A DNA stretch of 64,000 nucleotides from Chloroflexota bacterium (GTDB lineage Bacteria; Chloroflexota; UBA11872): the NCBI GenBank assembly GCA_022826485.1, contig JAJDUU010000043.1, forward strand, positions 1 through 64,000. The letters run 5' to 3'. The notes under the pieces were generated by a model. It saw nothing but the letters and a program-made list of their open reading frames with translations. It was not told where the DNA came from and searched no databases. Position numbers and translations under genes: made by a program. The number at the start of each line of letters is the position of its first letter. Positions within the stretch are counted from its first letter, which is position 1. This document shows, piece after piece, positions 30,505 through 39,118 of this stretch.

Positions 30505-31278
30505 CTAGGTCTTGGTCGCGACGACGATGAGGCGGTCGCCCTCGCCGTCGTAGGGGTCGAGCGTCCAGCTGCCGTAAGTCTCGATCCGCTCGAATCCGGC
30601 GCAGCGTAGGGCCAGCTCCAACTCGAACCGGTGCACGTACCGCAGCGGCATGCGCGCGACGCGGCGCGTCACCCGTCCGTCGGCGCCAAGCACGTCGTAG
30701 ACATGCAGCGCGTCGATCCGCTGCGTGCCGGGATCGACATCCCACGAGACGAAGTGCGTCACCGCGGCTCCGCCGGCGTCCCGAAAGCTCCCCTGGGTCC
30801 GCAGCACGCCGTCCCAGGCCGCCAGGCGGTCGAGCGTGGGATCGAAGACGTCCACGACCAGAATGCCTCCGGTCCTGAGCGTGCCGCGCGCTCCGGCAAG
30901 TGTTTGGAGTTGATCGTGCGTGGACGCCAGGTGCAGAAACGAATCCAGGGCGCAAATCACCGCCCCGAATTGGATGCGCGGCGATAGCGCGCGCATGTCG
31001 CCCTGCTCGAGCGCGAGTTCGAGGCCGCGCTCATCCGCGCGTCGCCGCGCGATGGCAAGCAGCGCCGGCGACGCGTCGAGGCCGTGGACCTCGAATCCGG
31101 CCGCGGCCAGAGCCGTGCCGACACGCGCGGTGCCGCACGCCAGGTCCATGATCGGCCCGCCGGCGCGCTCGGCCAGGTGGGCATACAGCGGGAGATCGTC
31201 GTCCCATTCGTCGTGCTCGGCGGCGTAGAGCTCGGCAATGGCCGCATAGGGATCGGCGTGGGGGTCGGACGTGCTCAC
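30505..31278 (-). CDS. SAM-dependent methyltransferase (class I)
   Basis: 257 aa from a GTG. The Rossmann motif I IMDLACGTARVGTALA, motif post-I HGLDASPALLAIAR and motif II FGAVICALDSFLHL are typical of class I methyltransferases. The N-terminus (DPYAAIAELYAAEHDEWDDDLPLY) resembles small-molecule or protein methyltransferases. The start overlaps the TGA of the membrane-protein gene by 4 bp, so it is the last gene of the SbcD/SbcC-like operon. Its place in a DNA-repair-like operon makes a nucleic-acid or partner-protein substrate conceivable, but this is not shown by sequence. Confidence 0.85.
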   Translation of the reverse strand: MSTSDPHADPYAAIAELYAAEHDEWDDDLPLYAHLAERAGGPIMDLACGTARVGTALAAAGFEVHGLDASPALLAIARRRADERGLELALEQGDMRALSPRIQFGAVICALDSFLHLASTHDQLQTLAGARGTLRTGGILVVDVFDPTLDRLAAWDGVLRTQGSFRDAGGAAVTHFVSWDVDPGTQRIDALHVYDVLGADGRVTRRVARMPLRYVHRFELELALRCAGFERIETYGSWTLDPYDGEGDRLIVVATKT

Positions 31279-31973
31279 CGGCCGAGGGGCATGCGCCGAA
31301 TGAGCAACTCGGCGCTGATGATCACCAGCACGATCAGGATTGCTGCCGCAGGACTGGCGACCCCGTTGACGGCCGCCGTCGCCAACGCCACGGCCCCGGC
31401 GGCAATGAAGACCGCCTGGCGGGTGACGATCACGGCCGGTACACGCGGCCCCGAGGCGTCATCGCTGGTTCGGAGCCACGCGCCGATGGCCCAGGCGAAG
31501 AAAAACGCGCCGAACCCCGCCAAGCCCACGAAGGCCAAGACGTTCTCCGTCCGGTCCGGCGAGGTGAAGACGAGCACATAGCCCAGCAATGCCAGCGTGA
31601 CCAGCCCACCCAACCACATGAGGTTGCCCGTGGCGCGGGTGAAATCACGCGCGGCGCGCGGGCGCGCGGCACGTGGGCGATAGCCGCGCGGGGCCGGCGC
31701 CTCGAGATCCAGCGTGGGGGTCGAATCGTCGGCGCCCTTTGCGTCGGGTGACTTTTCGGCGTCTTTGGTAGCCGGCGGCGCGGTGCCGGGCTTAGTCGCC
31801 GGCGGCGCGGTGCTGGGCTTGGGGGCCGGCGCCGGTTTGTCGCGCTTCGCGATTGGCGCCGCCGTCCGGCGCCTGATGACCAGCGAGTCGTCAGCCAACG
31901 GCCCTGAGCCAGTGCGCGGGCGCCGCCTGGGCGGGAGATGGCTCCGACGTTCCCTCGACGATGTTTGCGACAT
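31275..31973 (-). CDS. Four-span membrane protein with basic/Pro-rich cytoplasmic N-terminus
   Basis: 232 aa. Residues 1-115 are disordered and rich in Arg, Lys, Pro and Ala (repeated APPATKPGT units). Four hydrophobic spans follow (about 118-138, 144-165, 183-203, 207-226). The ATG at 31973 overlaps the end of the SbcC-like gene by 83 bp; a TTG at 31898 would give an 8-bp overlap and is a realistic alternative. No family was recognised. It may serve as a membrane platform for the coiled-coil protein encoded just upstream, which itself has two membrane spans. Confidence 0.65.
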   Translation of the reverse strand: MSQTSSRERRSHLPPRRRPRTGSGPLADDSLVIRRRTAAPIAKRDKPAPAPKPSTAPPATKPGTAPPATKDAEKSPDAKGADDSTPTLDLEAPAPRGYRPRAARPRAARDFTRATGNLMWLGGLVTLALLGYVLVFTSPDRTENVLAFVGLAGFGAFFFAWAIGAWLRTSDDASGPRVPAVIVTRQAVFIAAGAVALATAAVNGVASPAAAILIVLVIISAELLIRRMPLGR

Positions 31974-34908
31974 GATCGAATCCGGCGTGCGTCAAGCCTC
32001 CTGGAGCGGCGGTGGCGATGACCTGGGGAAAGTGCCGCTGAACGTCGGCTTGCGCCAGTCCATCGAGCACGGCTGCGATCGCCCCAGCGTCAACGTCCTC
32101 GCCGGCCGCGTCGAGCCACAGGAATGCGGGGGCATGGGGAGCGTCGTGCGGGCGGACGGCGCTGAGAAAGGCTATGCCGACCGCAAGCATCACCCGACCG
32201 CGCGCGTCGGCGGCGACGTCCCGGAGGGGCGCCCAGGCCTGGCCGTCCTCGTCCCACAGGTTAACGGTCTGGTCCGACGCGATGCGCACGTCCCAATACC
32301 GGCCGCCGGTGATGGGACCCACGACCTGCCGCAGGGCGGCCTCGGCGGTCGGACGCACCCCGCTGGCCAGGGCATCGAGCGCCTGGCCCATGAGGCGCGC
32401 CGCGGCGGCGCGGACGCGGCGCCGGTCGACGATGTCGTCGAGCGCCGCGCGCGACGCTTCGAGGTCGACCTCGTTTCGCACGGCTCCCGTACGGAGCTCC
32501 AATTCGCGAATCTGCGCGTCGAATTCGCGCCGTTCGGCCCGGGCGCGCTGCATCCGGCGGCGGGCGCCGCCGGCATCCTCCAGGCGGTCGTCGTCCAGGT
32601 CGGGAAAGATGGCCCGAACCTCCGAGACGGTGGGAGCGGCGTCGACGTGGGCGCCGGTCGCCCGCACGGCGCCGGCCAACTCCGCCGCGGACCGGGCCAC
32701 ACCGTCGTGCGCGGCGCGGGCCGTCGCACTCGTCCGGTTTACCTGGTCCGCCGCCCGCGATTCACCGACGGCGGCAATCACATCCGCCAGGGCCGCGAGT
32801 CCTTCGAGGCGTCCAATGGCCGCGGCGGCCGGCTGGCCGCGCGGCAGCCCGGGTTCAGTTTCCACGAGCGCCTCGATGGCCTGCCTGATGCCCGGCAGCG
32901 CGCTCTCGGCCGCGTGGAGCTTCCATTGCTCGCGCTGGTGCGACGCCTCGAGATCGGATTGACGGTCCACACGGTCCTGCAGGGCGTTCAGGTCACGCTG
33001 TAGGGCGCTGCGAGCTTCGGTCAATGTCCGCTGGTCGTCGGACAGACCGAGGGATCCGGCCAGCTCTGACGCGTGGCCGTGCGCGCGTCCACTCGCCTCG
33101 ATCTGGTTGCGCAGCTCGGCTTCGGCGGCGGCCGCGAGATCCTCGGCTCCCGAGTCCTCGAGCTCGCGCATTCGCGCCTGGAGTCGCTGCACTTCGCGGT
33201 CGGCGTGGGCAAGCTGCCGCTCCGTGCGCGCGCACTCGGCTTCCAGGTCGTCGGTCGAGACGGCGCCGTCGCCGTCGGCAAGACGGCGCAGCCTGGCGGT
33301 GGCGCTGTCGCGGAGAGTGCGCGCGCGCTCCGCGGTTGCGGGGATTTCAAGTCCGCGGCGCTCGAGCTCGTGCTCGATCTTGCTCTGTTGTCTTCGATTG
33401 ACGGCCAGACGGGCGGCGCGCTGCTCGCTTGTCTGAAGGTCGTGATCGAGCTCGGCCAACTGGTCGAGCAGCTCTTCCTCCCGGGCCTGATCCGTGCGCT
33501 GGCTCCACAGCGACCAGGCGCCCGCGGCCGTTCCGGCAACGACGGTCGCCATGCCCAACACCGCCAGCGGCGCGGCGCCGGTGAAGCCGATCGTGGCCAG
33601 GACGATGCCAAGGGCGACGCCAATGGCCGACACGACCAGCCGGCTCTTGCGGCGCTGCGCCTCGATGGCCAGCGACCGCAGCTGTTGCTTGATACGCGTG
33701 GTCTCGAGCGAGCGAGCTGAGGCGTCGACCTCGTCGTGGTCATGGTCCGACGCGGCGTCGAGGATGTCGCCGAGCCGGCCCCAGAGCCGGTGCGCGACGG
33801 GGAGGTGTTCGTCTTCGTGCGCGCGTTTGCGCAGGGTCCGCGCCCGCTCGGCGGCAGCCCGCGCCTTGGACTGCACGACCTGGGCCTCGACCAGGTCGGA
33901 GCGAGCCCGCCGGAACTCATGCGCCGCCTGCTGATGTTGGTCGCGCTTCGCCCTGGCGCGGTCGGCCGCCTGCGACGCCGTGAGGCCTGTCGCGACGGCC
34001 TCGCAGGCTCGGTCAAGAGCCGCCAGCCGCTCGGCGTCCAATCGCGCACGCTGCGCCAGGGACGCGAGTTCGCCCAGCCGCGCATCCAGGCTCTCGACCC
34101 GTTCCCTCGCGCGCGCGGCTTCGCTGGCGTGATGCGCGTGATCCGCCCACAGCACGGCAAACTCGCGATAGGCAGCCAGGCGATCGCGTTCGTCGAGGAA
34201 TTGTCCGCGCAGCACGCGGTAGCTGCGCTCGGTCGCATCGACCTCCGCCGCGCGCTCCGACGCCGCGGCGAGGGCCTGCAATGCCTGGCGCACGCGCCAG
34301 CGCTGCAGCGAGCGTTCGAGCCGGTCGATTTCGTCCTTGGTTGCGGCCGCCCGCATCACCGCCTCAGCCAGCTCGACGCGGGCTCTGGCCGCCGTTTCTT
34401 CTTCCCGGTGCGCGGGGCTGTCGGCGAACTCGGCTTCCATCTCCTGGATTCGTCGCTCGCCCAGCAGGCGGCGCAGCAGCGCTCGAACCTCGGCGGCCGG
34501 GGGCAATTCGGCGCGAGGCCGCGGCAGCACCAGCGCTTCCAGGGTCTCTTGATCGAGTCCCACCATCGCGTCGAGCGCCGCACCCACCTGCGCGCCGCCG
34601 CGGATGGGCGTTGATCGCGGACCGCGGTTCACGATCAGCTCCGACTCATCGCCGCCGGTGGCCCGCAGCGTGCGCCGCACGGTGACGGGCCGCCCACCGG
34701 CCGCGAGCACGCATTCCACCATCGCGCCGTCAGACCTGGCGCGCAGGCCGTCGGCCGGGCCGAACAGACACGTCATCAGCGCCTCGCGCACGACCTGCGC
34801 CTGACTATCCGCGACGGTGATCAGGTGATGGCCCTGCGGCTGGAATTCCAACTCAACTCGATGCAAGGCCCCGAGTTCACGGATTACGAGCCGCTCCAGG
34901 AGAATCAT
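31891..34908 (-). CDS. SbcC/YhaN-like coiled-coil protein with lost ATPase motifs and two membrane spans
   Basis: 1005 aa. The layout is that of YhaN-type SMC-like ATPases: an N-terminal strand set (MILLERLVIRELGALHRVEL), long coiled coils (about 150-420 and 460-700), a central pair of hydrophobic spans (about 425-470: RLVVSAIGVALGIVL and AVLGMATVVAGTAAG), and a C-terminal lobe. The place of Walker A (family GPNEAGKST before the LFG turn) reads VADSQAQVV. The C-terminal signature region reads VAADARGRVML instead of LSGG. Walker B reads PAFLWLDAAGED without the catalytic acid pair. The frame is intact over 3 kb, so this is a pseudoenzyme rather than a decayed gene. ATGA overlap with the SbcD-like gene implies a stable complex. 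Confidence 0.8.
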   Translation of the reverse strand: MILLERLVIRELGALHRVELEFQPQGHHLITVADSQAQVVREALMTCLFGPADGLRARSDGAMVECVLAAGGRPVTVRRTLRATGGDESELIVNRGPRSTPIRGGAQVGAALDAMVGLDQETLEALVLPRPRAELPPAAEVRALLRRLLGERRIQEMEAEFADSPAHREEETAARARVELAEAVMRAAATKDEIDRLERSLQRWRVRQALQALAAASERAAEVDATERSYRVLRGQFLDERDRLAAYREFAVLWADHAHHASEAARARERVESLDARLGELASLAQRARLDAERLAALDRACEAVATGLTASQAADRARAKRDQHQQAAHEFRRARSDLVEAQVVQSKARAAAERARTLRKRAHEDEHLPVAHRLWGRLGDILDAASDHDHDEVDASARSLETTRIKQQLRSLAIEAQRRKSRLVVSAIGVALGIVLATIGFTGAAPLAVLGMATVVAGTAAGAWSLWSQRTDQAREEELLDQLAELDHDLQTSEQRAARLAVNRRQQSKIEHELERRGLEIPATAERARTLRDSATARLRRLADGDGAVSTDDLEAECARTERQLAHADREVQRLQARMRELEDSGAEDLAAAAEAELRNQIEASGRAHGHASELAGSLGLSDDQRTLTEARSALQRDLNALQDRVDRQSDLEASHQREQWKLHAAESALPGIRQAIEALVETEPGLPRGQPAAAAIGRLEGLAALADVIAAVGESRAADQVNRTSATARAAHDGVARSAAELAGAVRATGAHVDAAPTVSEVRAIFPDLDDDRLEDAGGARRRMQRARAERREFDAQIRELELRTGAVRNEVDLEASRAALDDIVDRRRVRAAAARLMGQALDALASGVRPTAEAALRQVVGPITGGRYWDVRIASDQTVNLWDEDGQAWAPLRDVAADARGRVMLAVGIAFLSAVRPHDAPHAPAFLWLDAAGEDVDAGAIAAVLDGLAQADVQRHFPQVIATAAPGGLTHAGFDHVANIVEGTSEPSPAQAAPAHWLRAVG

Positions 34909-36020
34909 GCGGCGTGGCTCCCGGCGCGTCGTCGAAATCCATCGACCACCGCCCGGCGCGCGCGCGCGATCGTCTCAGAGTCGCTGTCGGCGTCCGGCGC
35001 GGCGTTCATCTGGTCGGCCGCGCGTCGCACTTCCACCACGAACGAGCGGGTCGGCTGCGCGTCGGCCGGGCCCGCTAAGACGCGAAGCTGCGCCAGGTCG
35101 ACATGCACCAGCGTTCCCGCGGCGGAGGCGCGGCGGCTGAGGTCGCCAATCCGGCAGCGATGCCACAGCTCGCGGGAAAACTCCCCCACAAGCTCAAGCG
35201 TGACAAGCGGCGCCTCGCCGATCAGCGTCGCCAGGCGCTCACGGATGGCCGCGGCGGGATCGCGGTCGACGAGATCCGCCGCGCTGAAGCTGACGACCAC
35301 CGGCGCGACGCCCGCAAGCTCCCGAAACTCGGCGCCGATCACGCCCTCGTGGTCGAGATCGATGATGGCGAATCCCGCCTCGGCACGCCGCTCGGTCACC
35401 GAAGGCGCGGTCCAACCGGGGCAGACCAGGAACGCGTCGCCGAGTCGCCGTTGGCCGGGATCGGGCCGGTTGCCGAGGACGATGACGTCCGCCGCCGTCT
35501 CCAGAGTCTCCAGCTCATCGGTGTCGACGGCCAGCGCGATGCGTAGGAGGCCGCGATCGGCGGCAGGCTCGACGTGGTCAAGCGCCGAGGCCGCGCCAAT
35601 CTCCAACGTCAATCCCGCGATCTGGACGGTTCGCGTGCGCATGGGACCCGCCGGGCGCACAGCGGCCAGGAGACCCAGCTCTTCGAGAAAGGCAATGCCG
35701 GCGCCATCGGTCGCTGGCTCATTCGCCTCGTCGAGGGCGATCACGACGATGCCGGCGTCGCGCGCGCGCCTCAGGCACTGGGACGCAAAGCGGATGTCTT
35801 CGAGCCCTGGTTCCGATCGCGCGAATAGGCCGCCCGCGATGAGAAGGAGATCAGCGTCGTCGGCAAGCGCCTGATCGACGACGGCGGCGAAACTTCGCCG
35901 TGTGTGAGCCTGGAAGATCACGAGCTGCTCGGGGTTGAGCGACGATGGCGCATCCCCGATACGACTGCCCGCGGTGAGCACGGCACGGATTGATTCGGCC
36001 GATCCCCGCAGGAACCGCAT
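34905..36020 (-). CDS. SbcD/YhaO-like metallophosphoesterase-fold protein lacking metal ligands
   Basis: 371 aa. The fold can be followed along the Mre11/YhaO pattern, yet every metal ligand is replaced: the D-x-H near the N-terminus is SAES; the GDLFD motif is GGLFA (LLLIAGGLFARSEP); GNHD is DEANEP; the H-G-S strand is AVDTDE; and the final GH-x-H is LGNRPD. The later CPGWTAPSVTERRAEAGFAIIDLD still matches the family's YPGS...GV-LVEID segment. It cannot be an Mn-dependent nuclease by the known mechanism. It is coupled by ATGA to the SbcC-like gene and starts 6 bp after the DUF4130-like gene. Confidence 0.75.
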   Translation of the reverse strand: MRFLRGSAESIRAVLTAGSRIGDAPSSLNPEQLVIFQAHTRRSFAAVVDQALADDADLLLIAGGLFARSEPGLEDIRFASQCLRRARDAGIVVIALDEANEPATDGAGIAFLEELGLLAAVRPAGPMRTRTVQIAGLTLEIGAASALDHVEPAADRGLLRIALAVDTDELETLETAADVIVLGNRPDPGQRRLGDAFLVCPGWTAPSVTERRAEAGFAIIDLDHEGVIGAEFRELAGVAPVVVSFSAADLVDRDPAAAIRERLATLIGEAPLVTLELVGEFSRELWHRCRIGDLSRRASAAGTLVHVDLAQLRVLAGPADAQPTRSFVVEVRRAADQMNAAPDADSDSETIARARRAVVDGFRRRAGSHAA

Positions 36021-36026
36021 GCGCAG

Positions 36027-36632
36027 CTACGCCATCCCCTGCCTCCCAGGTGCGGCGACGAAATGTGCCTGACTTGCAAGAATATCACCGCCCGATGGCG
36101 CCGACCAGATTGATCGACCCGCCCGCTCGCGGCCGGGCGCCAGCTTCAGGCTGATGCCGCATCCATCCTGCACGTAGGTGCGCTGACCGTCCCGAATCAT
36201 GAGCGTGTGGCCGCGCCACCGGCGTCGAAAATGCCGCAGCACCAGGTCGACAACCGGGAATTGGAAGTGCCATTCGGCCACGAGTTGGCGCGGACCCGGC
36301 CCGCGGATGAAGCGCAGATCGCGGCGCGCGACGTGGACCTCGCGATAGACCTGATGCCCCCAACTCAAGGCCAACTGCGCTTCACGCGAACTGCGCCCGA
36401 GCACGTAGGCGGCTCCGTGCTCCAGCACCTGTCCAGCCACCTCGCCGAGCACGCGATCGCGGTCCGGCGCGGGATGGCGCAGCGCGTAGCCGTAGAGCCG
36501 CTCCAGCCGGGCCATGCGCCGGCGGTCTCGCCGCACTGCCGCCAGGCAGGACCGCACCACGTCCGGCCCGCCGCCCCGATCCAGGGCAACCTGCTCCAGG
36601 AGGGAGCTGAATGTGTCTGGCAATCGGTTCAT
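36027..36632 (-). CDS. DUF4130-like protein (putative DNA metabolism family)
   Basis: 201 aa from the ATG at 36632, fixed by AGGAGG 6 nt upstream. The middle and end resemble DUF4130/TIGR03915: WGHQVYREVHVARRDLRFI aligns with the family's larrV-rEahr...vRF segment, and FPVVDLVLRHFRRRWRGHTL followed by MIRDGQRTYVQDG aligns with the HF-x-R-F...W-I-D-x-R-gyalyydg segment. That family usually partners a radical-SAM protein in a putative DNA repair or modification role; no radical-SAM gene is present here. It is the first gene of the operon with the SbcD/SbcC-like pair. Assignment is by pattern only. Confidence 0.6.
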   Translation of the reverse strand: MNRLPDTFSSLLEQVALDRGGGPDVVRSCLAAVRRDRRRMARLERLYGYALRHPAPDRDRVLGEVAGQVLEHGAAYVLGRSSREAQLALSWGHQVYREVHVARRDLRFIRGPGPRQLVAEWHFQFPVVDLVLRHFRRRWRGHTLMIRDGQRTYVQDGCGISLKLAPGRERAGRSIWSAPSGGDILASQAHFVAAPGRQGMA

Positions 36633-36735
36633 TTTCGCCTCCTCTCGAAGCCGTAGTGGATAGCCGGCAACGCGTTCACCGCCGGTACGGCAACCAAACA
36701 ATTAGTCAAGCCATGCGGGAACCTCGATCGCCCGT

Positions 36736-37977
36736 TCATCCGAGCACCGCGTCGCGCCAGGCGTAGCGACTCGAACTCATTCGGGCTTCGCTGGCGAGCA
36801 GTGCGGCGGGCGCCAACACGGCGTCCCCAAATCGCCGGCGAATCTGATCCTGCGCCTCATCGAGCCGCCGTCGCTCGCGCGACTCAGGCGGCCGCAACGG
36901 CAGCTGGCAGTAGTCGAAGCTCTCGAGCGCCGAGGCGTGGACTCCAACGAGGCGGTAGATGTCGCCGGCACGCGCCACACGCGTGAACAGATCGCGGGCC
37001 AGGGCGAAGATGGCCGCGCCGATATCGACGGACGCCGAGACCGTCGTCTGGCGCGTGATGGTGCGAAAGTCGGCGTAGCGCACCTTGACGCTGATGGTGC
37101 GGGCGCGAAGCTGCTTGGCGCGCAGCCGCTGGCCCACGTGTTCCGCCAGCTGCTGCAGGTAGTCCACCACGATCGCCCCGTCGTCCACGTCGCGATCGAA
37201 GGTGACCTCGTTGCCCACCGAACGGCGCGCCCGCGTGGGAGTGACGGCGCGGGGATCAACGCCACGCGACCGCACGGCGGCCTGGGCCGCGGCGCCGCCG
37301 AATCCCGCGTGGACCCGCTCCGGGGCGATGCGAGCCAGGTCGCCGACGGTGGTCACGCCATGCCGCCCGAGCTTGGCCGCGGTCTTGGGACCGATTCCCC
37401 AGACCATGCGTACGGGAAGGGGGTCGAGAAACGCCGTCTCGGCGCCGGGAGCAATGACGCGGGAGCCGTCGGGCTTGGCGACCTGGGAGGCGATTTTGGC
37501 GACGGACTTGGAGGTCGCCACGCCGACGGAGATGGGGAGGTCCTCCCGCTCGCGAACGGCCGCGCGTAGATGCGCCGCTATTTCGGACGGCGCGCCATAG
37601 CGACGCTCGCAGCCCGTAACGTCGAGAAACGCCTCGTCCAGCGACAACGGCTCGACGAGCGGCGTGTAGGCGCGAAACAGATCCATGACGCGGCTCGACA
37701 CGTCGGAATAGAGCGACATGCGCCCGGGAAGAAACTCGGCCTGCGGGCAGAGGCGTGCGGCTTGACGCGAGGGCATGGCCGAGCGCACGCCGAACGCCCG
37801 AGCCTCATATGAAGCAGCGGTGACGACGCCGCGCCCATCGCGCGACCCGCCGACGACTACCGGCTTGCCGCGCAGCTCAGGCCGCTCACGCTGCTCGACG
37901 GCGGCATAGAAGGCGTCCATGTCGGCGTGCATGACCACCCGGTGACCAGCCCAGGCGGCCGAGCCGAGATGTTGCAT
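36736..37977 (-). CDS. dinB: DNA polymerase IV (Y-family)
   Basis: 413 aa from the ATG at 37977; longer in-frame starts exist but run through an intergenic repeat region. Y-family hallmarks are the first catalytic Asp in HADMDAFYAAVEQRE, SYEARAFGVRSAMPSRQA, and the acidic pair SLDEAFLDVT; the helix-hairpin-helix VWGIGPKTAAKLGRHGV and the little-finger domain (SVGNEVTFDRDV onward) follow. It carries out translesion synthesis and is usually under LexA control. lexA lies upstream on the same strand. Confidence 0.95.
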   Translation of the reverse strand: MQHLGSAAWAGHRVVMHADMDAFYAAVEQRERPELRGKPVVVGGSRDGRGVVTAASYEARAFGVRSAMPSRQAARLCPQAEFLPGRMSLYSDVSSRVMDLFRAYTPLVEPLSLDEAFLDVTGCERRYGAPSEIAAHLRAAVREREDLPISVGVATSKSVAKIASQVAKPDGSRVIAPGAETAFLDPLPVRMVWGIGPKTAAKLGRHGVTTVGDLARIAPERVHAGFGGAAAQAAVRSRGVDPRAVTPTRARRSVGNEVTFDRDVDDGAIVVDYLQQLAEHVGQRLRAKQLRARTISVKVRYADFRTITRQTTVSASVDIGAAIFALARDLFTRVARAGDIYRLVGVHASALESFDYCQLPLRPPESRERRRLDEAQDQIRRRFGDAVLAPAALLASEARMSSSRYAWRDAVLG

Positions 37978-38126
37978 GTGCGGGGCAGGTGCGGTCGATG
38001 TGAGGCCACGATACCAAACAAATACCGAACGAACAAGAAACGAACGACCGGCTCGTTGATTTGCGCTGGGGCTCCGCCGACCGGCGCGCGGAGGGCGGGG
38101 CATCCGGGCGGCCGTGCCTGGACGTC

Positions 38127-38155
38127 TGAGATCCCTCGCATCCGCTCGGGATGAC
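38127..38155 (+). repeat. Intergenic repeat family C copy
   Basis: TGAGATCCCTCGC followed by ATCCGCTCGGGATGAC; variant of the C-family unit. Confidence 0.65.
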
Positions 38156-38252
38156 AATCATGGCGAGCTGTAGGGTGCGCCGCCACCCGGATGGGAACGG
38201 CGCGGGGCCTGGATTTCGGAGCGAATTAGTCTCGGAGATTGATGTGTCGGAT

Positions 38253-38447: not shown

Positions 38448-39047
38448 CTAGAGGCTGCGCAGGATGGCGACGGCGTGGCCGCGTACGCGCACGTCGCGGG
38501 CGTAGATGGGCTCGAAGTCGGCGTTGGCGGGCTGCAGGCGCACCTGCCCGTTTTCGCGGAAAAGGCGCTTGAGCGTGGCGCTGCCGTCGTCCAGCATCGC
38601 CACGGCAATCTGCCCGTCCCGCACGGTTTCCGTGGGCGCGACGATGACCAGGTCACCGTCGCAGATGTGGTCGTCGATCATGCTGTCGCCGCGCACCCGC
38701 AGCGCATAGGTGTCGCCGGAGGGCACCAGACCGGAAGCGACCGGCACGGTGTCGATGCGCTCTTCGTAGGCGTCGATCGGCAGGCCGGCGGCAATCTCCC
38801 CGACGATCGGCACGTGGACCACGCCGGCGTCGGCGCCGTTATCGAGAATCTCGATGCCGTGCGACTGGCCGGTGCGCCGGATGTAGCCCTTGCGCTCCAA
38901 GGCGTCCAGGTGCTGCTGTACGGTGGCCGGCGCCAGCCCGACGATGCCGCCGACCTCGCGGACACTTGGCGTGTAGCCCTCGTCGCGCACAAAGTGCTCG
39001 ATGGTGACCAGCACGCGATGCTGGCGTTGGGTGAGCGGGCCGCCCAT
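38448..39047 (-). CDS. lexA: LexA SOS repressor
   Basis: 199 aa from the ATG at 39047; GGAGG lies 9 nt upstream and the family's LTQRQHRVLVTIEHFV follows. The winged helix has YTPSVREVGGIVGLAPATVQQHL. The peptidase domain has the cleavage site A87-G88 (IAAGLP), nucleophile S122 (GDSMIDD) and K160 (SATLKRLF). After RecA-stimulated self-cleavage it derepresses repair genes; dinB and the SbcD/SbcC-like operon lie downstream on the same strand. No classical Gram-positive or E. coli LexA box was recognised, so its operator is unknown here. Confidence 0.96.
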   Translation of the reverse strand: MGGPLTQRQHRVLVTIEHFVRDEGYTPSVREVGGIVGLAPATVQQHLDALERKGYIRRTGQSHGIEILDNGADAGVVHVPIVGEIAAGLPIDAYEERIDTVPVASGLVPSGDTYALRVRGDSMIDDHICDGDLVIVAPTETVRDGQIAVAMLDDGSATLKRLFRENGQVRLQPANADFEPIYARDVRVRGHAVAILRSL

Positions 39048-39118
39048 GGGCGACATCCTCCACGACGCGCGACGCAGCATGACCAACAGTCACGCGCCTG
39101 ATGATTCCACGCACGACC

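Follow-up and report, generated by a model that had tools for sequence, protein, structure and literature searches.

What remains of an Mre11-Rad50-type complex when its catalytic centres have been lost? Mre11–Rad50 complexes serve in DNA-break repair. Work on them deals with ATP-driven nucleases, and splitting their structural roles from their catalytic ones normally takes engineered mutants. In the locus described here, both activities have apparently been removed by evolution, and selection on the proteins persists. The window, that is, the whole stretch of 64,000 nucleotides analysed (contig JAJDUU010000043.1 of a Chloroflexota bacterium, positions 1 to 64,000), carries two adjacent genes, here called D and C. 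Their coordinates, former motifs and neighbours are listed in Table 1.

Table 1. Features of the D–C locus, with positions in the window and residue numbers of the proteins
Feature	Position	Strand	Basis or remark
D, Mre11-type protein of 371 aa that lacks nuclease ligands	34905..36020	-	ORF, profiles, Foldseek, alignment
D residues 16-22, with G-S-R at 18-20 where motif I (DxH) used to be	35955..35975	-	alignment to L049
D residues 62-67, AGGLFA where L049 has AGDTFD (former GD motif)	35820..35837	-	alignment
D residues 97-102, former GNHD, now DEANEP	35715..35732	-	alignment
D residues 182-187, former GHxH, now LGNRPD	35460..35477	-	alignment
D residues 322-366, conserved C-terminal segment at the place of the Rad50-binding region	34923..35057	-	conservation; binding role putative
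C, Rad50-type coiled-coil protein of 1005 aa that lacks ATPase motifs	31891..34908	-	ORF, profile, model, alignment
C residues 32-39, VADSQA-QV where L049 has GNNEAGKST (former Walker A)	34792..34815	-	alignment
C residues 361-380 (containing EDEHLPVAHRLW), conserved break in the coiled coil near the apex, arm 1	33769..33828	-	conservation, model
C residues 424-467, predicted transmembrane hairpin at coiled-coil apex	33508..33639	-	hydropathy, model
C residues 521-540 (EIPATAERARTLRDSATARL), conserved break in the coiled coil near the apex, arm 2	33289..33348	-	conservation, model
C residues 898-905, VAADARGR where L049 has FSGGTQDQ (former ABC signature)	32194..32217	-	alignment
C residues 930-940, LWLDAAGEDVD where L049 has LFLDEPLSSFD (former Walker B and D-loop)	32089..32121	-	alignment
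TM4, small membrane protein downstream of C	31275..31898	-	conserved in the window's family and two sister-family loci; start codon uncertain
MT, SAM-dependent methyltransferase, last gene of apparent operon	30505..31278	-	synteny
DUF4130 protein, 6 bases upstream of D	36027..36650	-	Pfam, synteny; start uncertain
DinB-type (Y-family) DNA polymerase	36736..38157	-	syntenic in the window's family; listed start probably too far upstream
LexA repressor	38448..39086	-	syntenic in the window's family

The stop codon of D and the start codon of C are joined by an ATGA overlap, and both frames are open throughout. D matched the NCBIfam model Mre11_Halo (E = 1e-12), and the profile of its family matched Mre11 in the PDB at 2e-14. 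In addition, the best 38 Foldseek matches of the D model, an AlphaFold model of low confidence (mean pLDDT 50), were Mre11/SbcD throughout. C alone gave no convincing match in Pfam, NCBIfam or the PDB. A C profile including rows of the sister family matched PDB Rad50 at 2e-12, and this match leans on those rows, which still have the P-loop. Meanwhile, the structure matches of the C model (pLDDT 70, pTM 0.30) were Rad50 and SMC proteins. Both models are of single chains, from alignments without rows of the sister family (f2) or of f3, another family of the class. D thus shows the Mre11-type fold of the small subunit of Mre11-Rad50/SbcCD (profiles, Foldseek), and C the split Rad50-type head and long coiled coil of the large one (profile with sister-family rows, model). 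These results confirm two claims of a sequence-only reading of the window, that the genes are a coupled open pair and that the pair is of Mre11/Rad50 type.

The catalytic positions were read from an alignment with intact relatives, for which L049 served as the intact comparison sequence. We found that D of the window keeps 0 of 9 nuclease positions and that D of the other family members keeps 0 or 1, so the two-metal nuclease ligands (DxH, GD, GNHD, H, GHxH) are missing from D. Furthermore, the segment bearing the THxxxEG histidine, ahead of the former GHxH, is deleted, a loss absent from the sequence-only reading. In C, the Walker A lysine, the ABC signature and the catalytic glutamate of Walker B are all gone, and no GK[S/T] was found by regular expression anywhere in C of the window's genus. 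It had been claimed that all catalytic positions were changed, and this stands for GD, GNHD, GHxH, Walker A and the signature. However, Walker B keeps its first acid in the window's genus (D933; the sister genus has E or Q there), and the former motif I is not SAES, as first read, but G18-S-R20. The former P-loop and GNHD segments vary even inside the window's genus. At the level of sequence, these results show that D and C are a Mre11-type and Rad50-type pair whose catalytic centres were lost.

To judge the age of this loss, the other members of the family are informative. Both genes, without the catalytic motifs, were present in all 19 sampled genomes of the window's GTDB family (f1), which comprise 6 genomes of the window's genus and 13 of a sister genus; in one of them (G013), the D matches are split over two contigs. 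The identity to D of the window was 71-87% in its own genus and about 30% in the sister genus, and the overlap of D stop and C start was seen in all 13 loci inspected as well as in the window. The pairwise dN/dS (Nei-Gojobori) was 0.24 for D and for C. For comparison, the intact paralogues of the same genus gave 0.21 (YhaO), 0.20 (YhaN), 0.18 (SbcD) and 0.26 (SbcC), and the neighbouring genes gave 0.05-0.36. The earlier claim that selection still acts on the proteins was therefore borne out, with values on par with those of the intact paralogues. In addition, six intact relatives were used to define invariant sites. Of these, the family has preserved 31 of 101 non-catalytic ones, including residues of the D C-terminus, versus 0 of 9 catalytic ones (Fisher p = 0.04; 30% versus 3% when counted by cells). 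The motif loss is not a matter of chance, because it is shared by all 19 genomes while the non-catalytic invariants partly survive. A close relative with the metal ligands or the P-loop was looked for in the alignment of relatives, and none was found. A recent pseudogene or an assembly artefact is ruled out by the conservation and the dN/dS. Thus, purifying selection has kept the dead pair across a bacterial family, and this suggests that the proteins now have a structural role, probably anchored in the membrane.

The pair had first been traced to YhaO and YhaN. This descent was not borne out by the tree and the profile comparisons, which rule it out and point to another source; neither D nor C grouped with the YhaO-like or YhaN-like proteins of the same genomes. 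In the D tree, the window's family, the sister family of the same order, and f3 and f5, other families of the same class, were grouped with support of 100/98, apart from YhaO-like and SbcD-like proteins. The profile of D of the window's family matched this third lineage at E = 4e-21, YhaO at 2e-7 and SbcD at 1e-6, and that of C gave 8e-24 for the third lineage, 0.018 for YhaN and 6e-4 for SbcC. The third lineage, which consists of f3, f5 and further genomes of the phylum, is an intact Mre11-Rad50-type lineage present in 32 of the 251 sampled Chloroflexota genomes. Vertical inheritance of the D–C pair from it is supported by the tree, with its long branches, by the profiles and by synteny; the pair lacks the intact motifs of its source.

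The stages of the loss can be followed along the taxonomy. In the f3 and f5 copies read, the nuclease motifs are intact and, where C was read, so are Walker A, the SGGTQDQ signature and LFLDEP; in four further members of the third lineage, most nuclease motifs were found by a simple motif search. In the sister family, D keeps 1-3 of 9 nuclease positions, and C keeps the P-loop and the Walker B aspartate and has lost the signature. In the window's family, nothing but that aspartate survives. Motif loss therefore looks stepwise in the aligned sequences, from intact (f3/f5) through partial (f2) to complete (f1). In most C proteins of the sister family (L041-L044), an Asp replaces the catalytic Glu, an intermediate stage. 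In the D tree, f1, f2 and f3/f5 form a fork with long branches and without a resolved branching order, which would fit one loss of the nuclease in the order or two. From the taxonomy and the shared order D–C–TM4–MT, we infer a single event.

The anatomy of C points to the membrane. The coiled-coil apex of Rad50 carries a zinc hook. C has no CxxC there and instead has a cysteine-free hydrophobic hairpin, called by hydropathy, with many members showing one segment above threshold rather than two. A hydrophobic stretch near this place was found in all 19 C proteins of the family and also in one genus of the sister family, and the possible membrane tether suggested by the sequence-only reading thus gained a predicted membrane segment in every family member. 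In YhaO-YhaN, the large subunit has a membrane segment within its coiled coil, and C is predicted to share this character. However, none was found in the intact third-lineage C proteins scanned, so the segment of C was probably gained separately from the YhaN-like one. Furthermore, the best-conserved segments of C flank the hairpin on both arms, away from the ATPase head. The conservation between genera was 0.55 at residues 361-380 and peaked at 0.67 at residues 521-540, versus 0.31 overall. Both segments lie at predicted helix breaks, about 75 residues to either side of the hairpin centre, and would therefore be opposite each other on the two arms. In D, the C-terminal segment still has residues shared with intact relatives.

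Downstream of dinB and lexA lie DUF4130, D, C, TM4 and MT, closely spaced on the same strand, and this arrangement is conserved in most of the window's family (in G006, the upstream neighbours had no matches in the stretch read). Two loci of the sister family have the order D-C-TM4-MT and a nearby aminotransferase gene in common with the window's family. TM4, for which no confident Pfam or NCBIfam match was found, may start at a TTG overlapping the C stop; it is conserved beside C in both families and is a candidate partner of C. The DUF4130 protein is weakly related to TIGR03915, and the radical-SAM partner of such proteins (TIGR03916) was not found in the genome. A search for the SOS box GAAC-N4-GTTC gave no signal above chance, and adjacency to lexA and dinB is by itself no demonstration of SOS control. 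In two f3 genomes (L047:5325-6272 and L158:467-1384), a methyltransferase weakly similar to MT of the window (E about 1e-14) follows the intact C, possibly an old synteny. As for the host, the named relatives are Chloroflexota MAGs and probably sponge symbionts, judging by what their isolates are called and by published work on sponge Chloroflexi (PMC6306507).

Based on the above results, we propose that D and C form a membrane-anchored, non-catalytic scaffold encoded in a lexA–dinB-linked operon, and we give this reading a probability of about 0.5. D and C would most likely still bind each other, with the retained C-terminal segment of D contacting the base of the coiled coil of C. The hairpin is predicted to anchor C in the cytoplasmic membrane at the place where Rad50 has its zinc hook, and D would occupy the far end of a long coiled-coil rod. 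The complex would then act as an ATP-independent scaffold or adaptor instead of an enzyme. The conserved joint of the two arms near the membrane and the neighbouring TM4 suggest a membrane partner, and the lexA-dinB neighbourhood suggests a DNA-damage context. Because the D model has a mean pLDDT of 50 and the C model a pTM of 0.30, the heads, the complex and the geometry of the rod are putative.

The pair could also tether DNA ends or the nucleoid, binding DNA without catalysis and tying it to the membrane, for instance when DNA is damaged. To clamp DNA, Rad50 as a rule needs ATP-engaged heads, which C can hardly form, and we regard such a tether as unlikely. It would nevertheless fit the Mre11-type fold retained in D and the lexA-dinB neighbourhood, and the eukaryotic MRN complex has nuclease-independent roles (PMC3642328).

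The genome of the window also encodes an intact SbcD/SbcC-like pair (L117) and an intact YhaO/YhaN-like pair (L118), both present across the genus. The cell therefore retains these activities, and the pair of the window is not the YhaO/YhaN pair. A genome-wide loss of all such enzymes is ruled out by these two pairs. Pseudoenzymes often regulate active paralogues, and the dead pair might assemble with, titrate or restrain one of the intact pairs. However, it is no recent duplicate of either of them, and mixed head-to-head dimers are not favoured because the C profile matches YhaN and SbcC only weakly. We consider regulation of this kind rather improbable.

Slow decay, in which the locus is a relic persisting by chance, would agree with the stepwise motif loss along the taxonomy and with the high divergence between genera (about 30% identity). 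It is very hard to reconcile with a dN/dS of 0.24, with frames that stay open over 1.1 and 3 kb, with the coupled starts and with the conserved synteny. Least probable is a new catalytic activity carried by different residues in or around the former sites. Although the polar residues D178, D221, D223, R283 and H287 of D are invariant in the aligned family rows, there is no conserved metal-ligand cluster at the former centre of D, the former P-loop and GNHD segments are variable within the genus, and some of the invariant acids look structural because intact relatives share them as invariants.

The proposed scaffold can be compared with several known systems. Like Mre11-Rad50 and SbcD-SbcC, the pair has overlapping adjacent genes, an Mre11 fold in D and a head–coiled coil–head layout in C; unlike them, it has no nuclease ligands, P-loop, signature or catalytic Glu, and a membrane hairpin is predicted at the apex, where no CxxC was noted. 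It shares with YhaO-YhaN (SbcEF) the two-gene layout and a hydrophobic segment in the middle of the coiled coil, which the genome's own intact YhaN-like protein also has. However, it belongs to another lineage by tree and profile, and the YhaO/YhaN-like proteins here retain their motifs. Outside the order, the best profile matches of both D and C are in the third Chloroflexota lineage, with which D also groups in the tree, but the C proteins of that lineage are mostly 1130-1300 aa long and lack a membrane segment in those scanned, and the f3/f5 motifs are intact. Finally, the catalytically inactive B-subunits of eukaryotic replicative DNA polymerases keep the phosphoesterase fold as non-catalytic subunits (PMC4996933). 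They resemble D in retaining a calcineurin/Mre11-type fold without catalysis. However, their partner is a polymerase and not a Rad50-type coiled-coil protein, and nothing suggests a shared history of inactivation.

Judged by its sequence, the D–C pair is a real and unusual variant of the Mre11-Rad50 type, with a function that we infer. Among the papers searched, which cover the literature in part, none was found to describe such a pair with both members dead. A broader proposal, for which we would give somewhat less than even odds, is that a Mre11-Rad50-type complex lost its nuclease as well as its ATPase and turned into an ATP-independent scaffold anchored in the membrane, with living intermediates in the sister family. 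In function, this would be a new class of SMC/Rad50-type assembly. The survival of intact, intermediate and dead stages in one bacterial class provides a natural series on the non-catalytic function of such a complex.

In addition, the intact SbcC-like protein of the same genome (L117:1442-4930) has a CPFFDSEC-type spacing (C-X6-C) in the middle of its coiled coil, rather than the CxxC of a zinc hook. This spacing is conserved across the genus (relatives L120 and L164-L167), and a similar one is seen in the sister genus.
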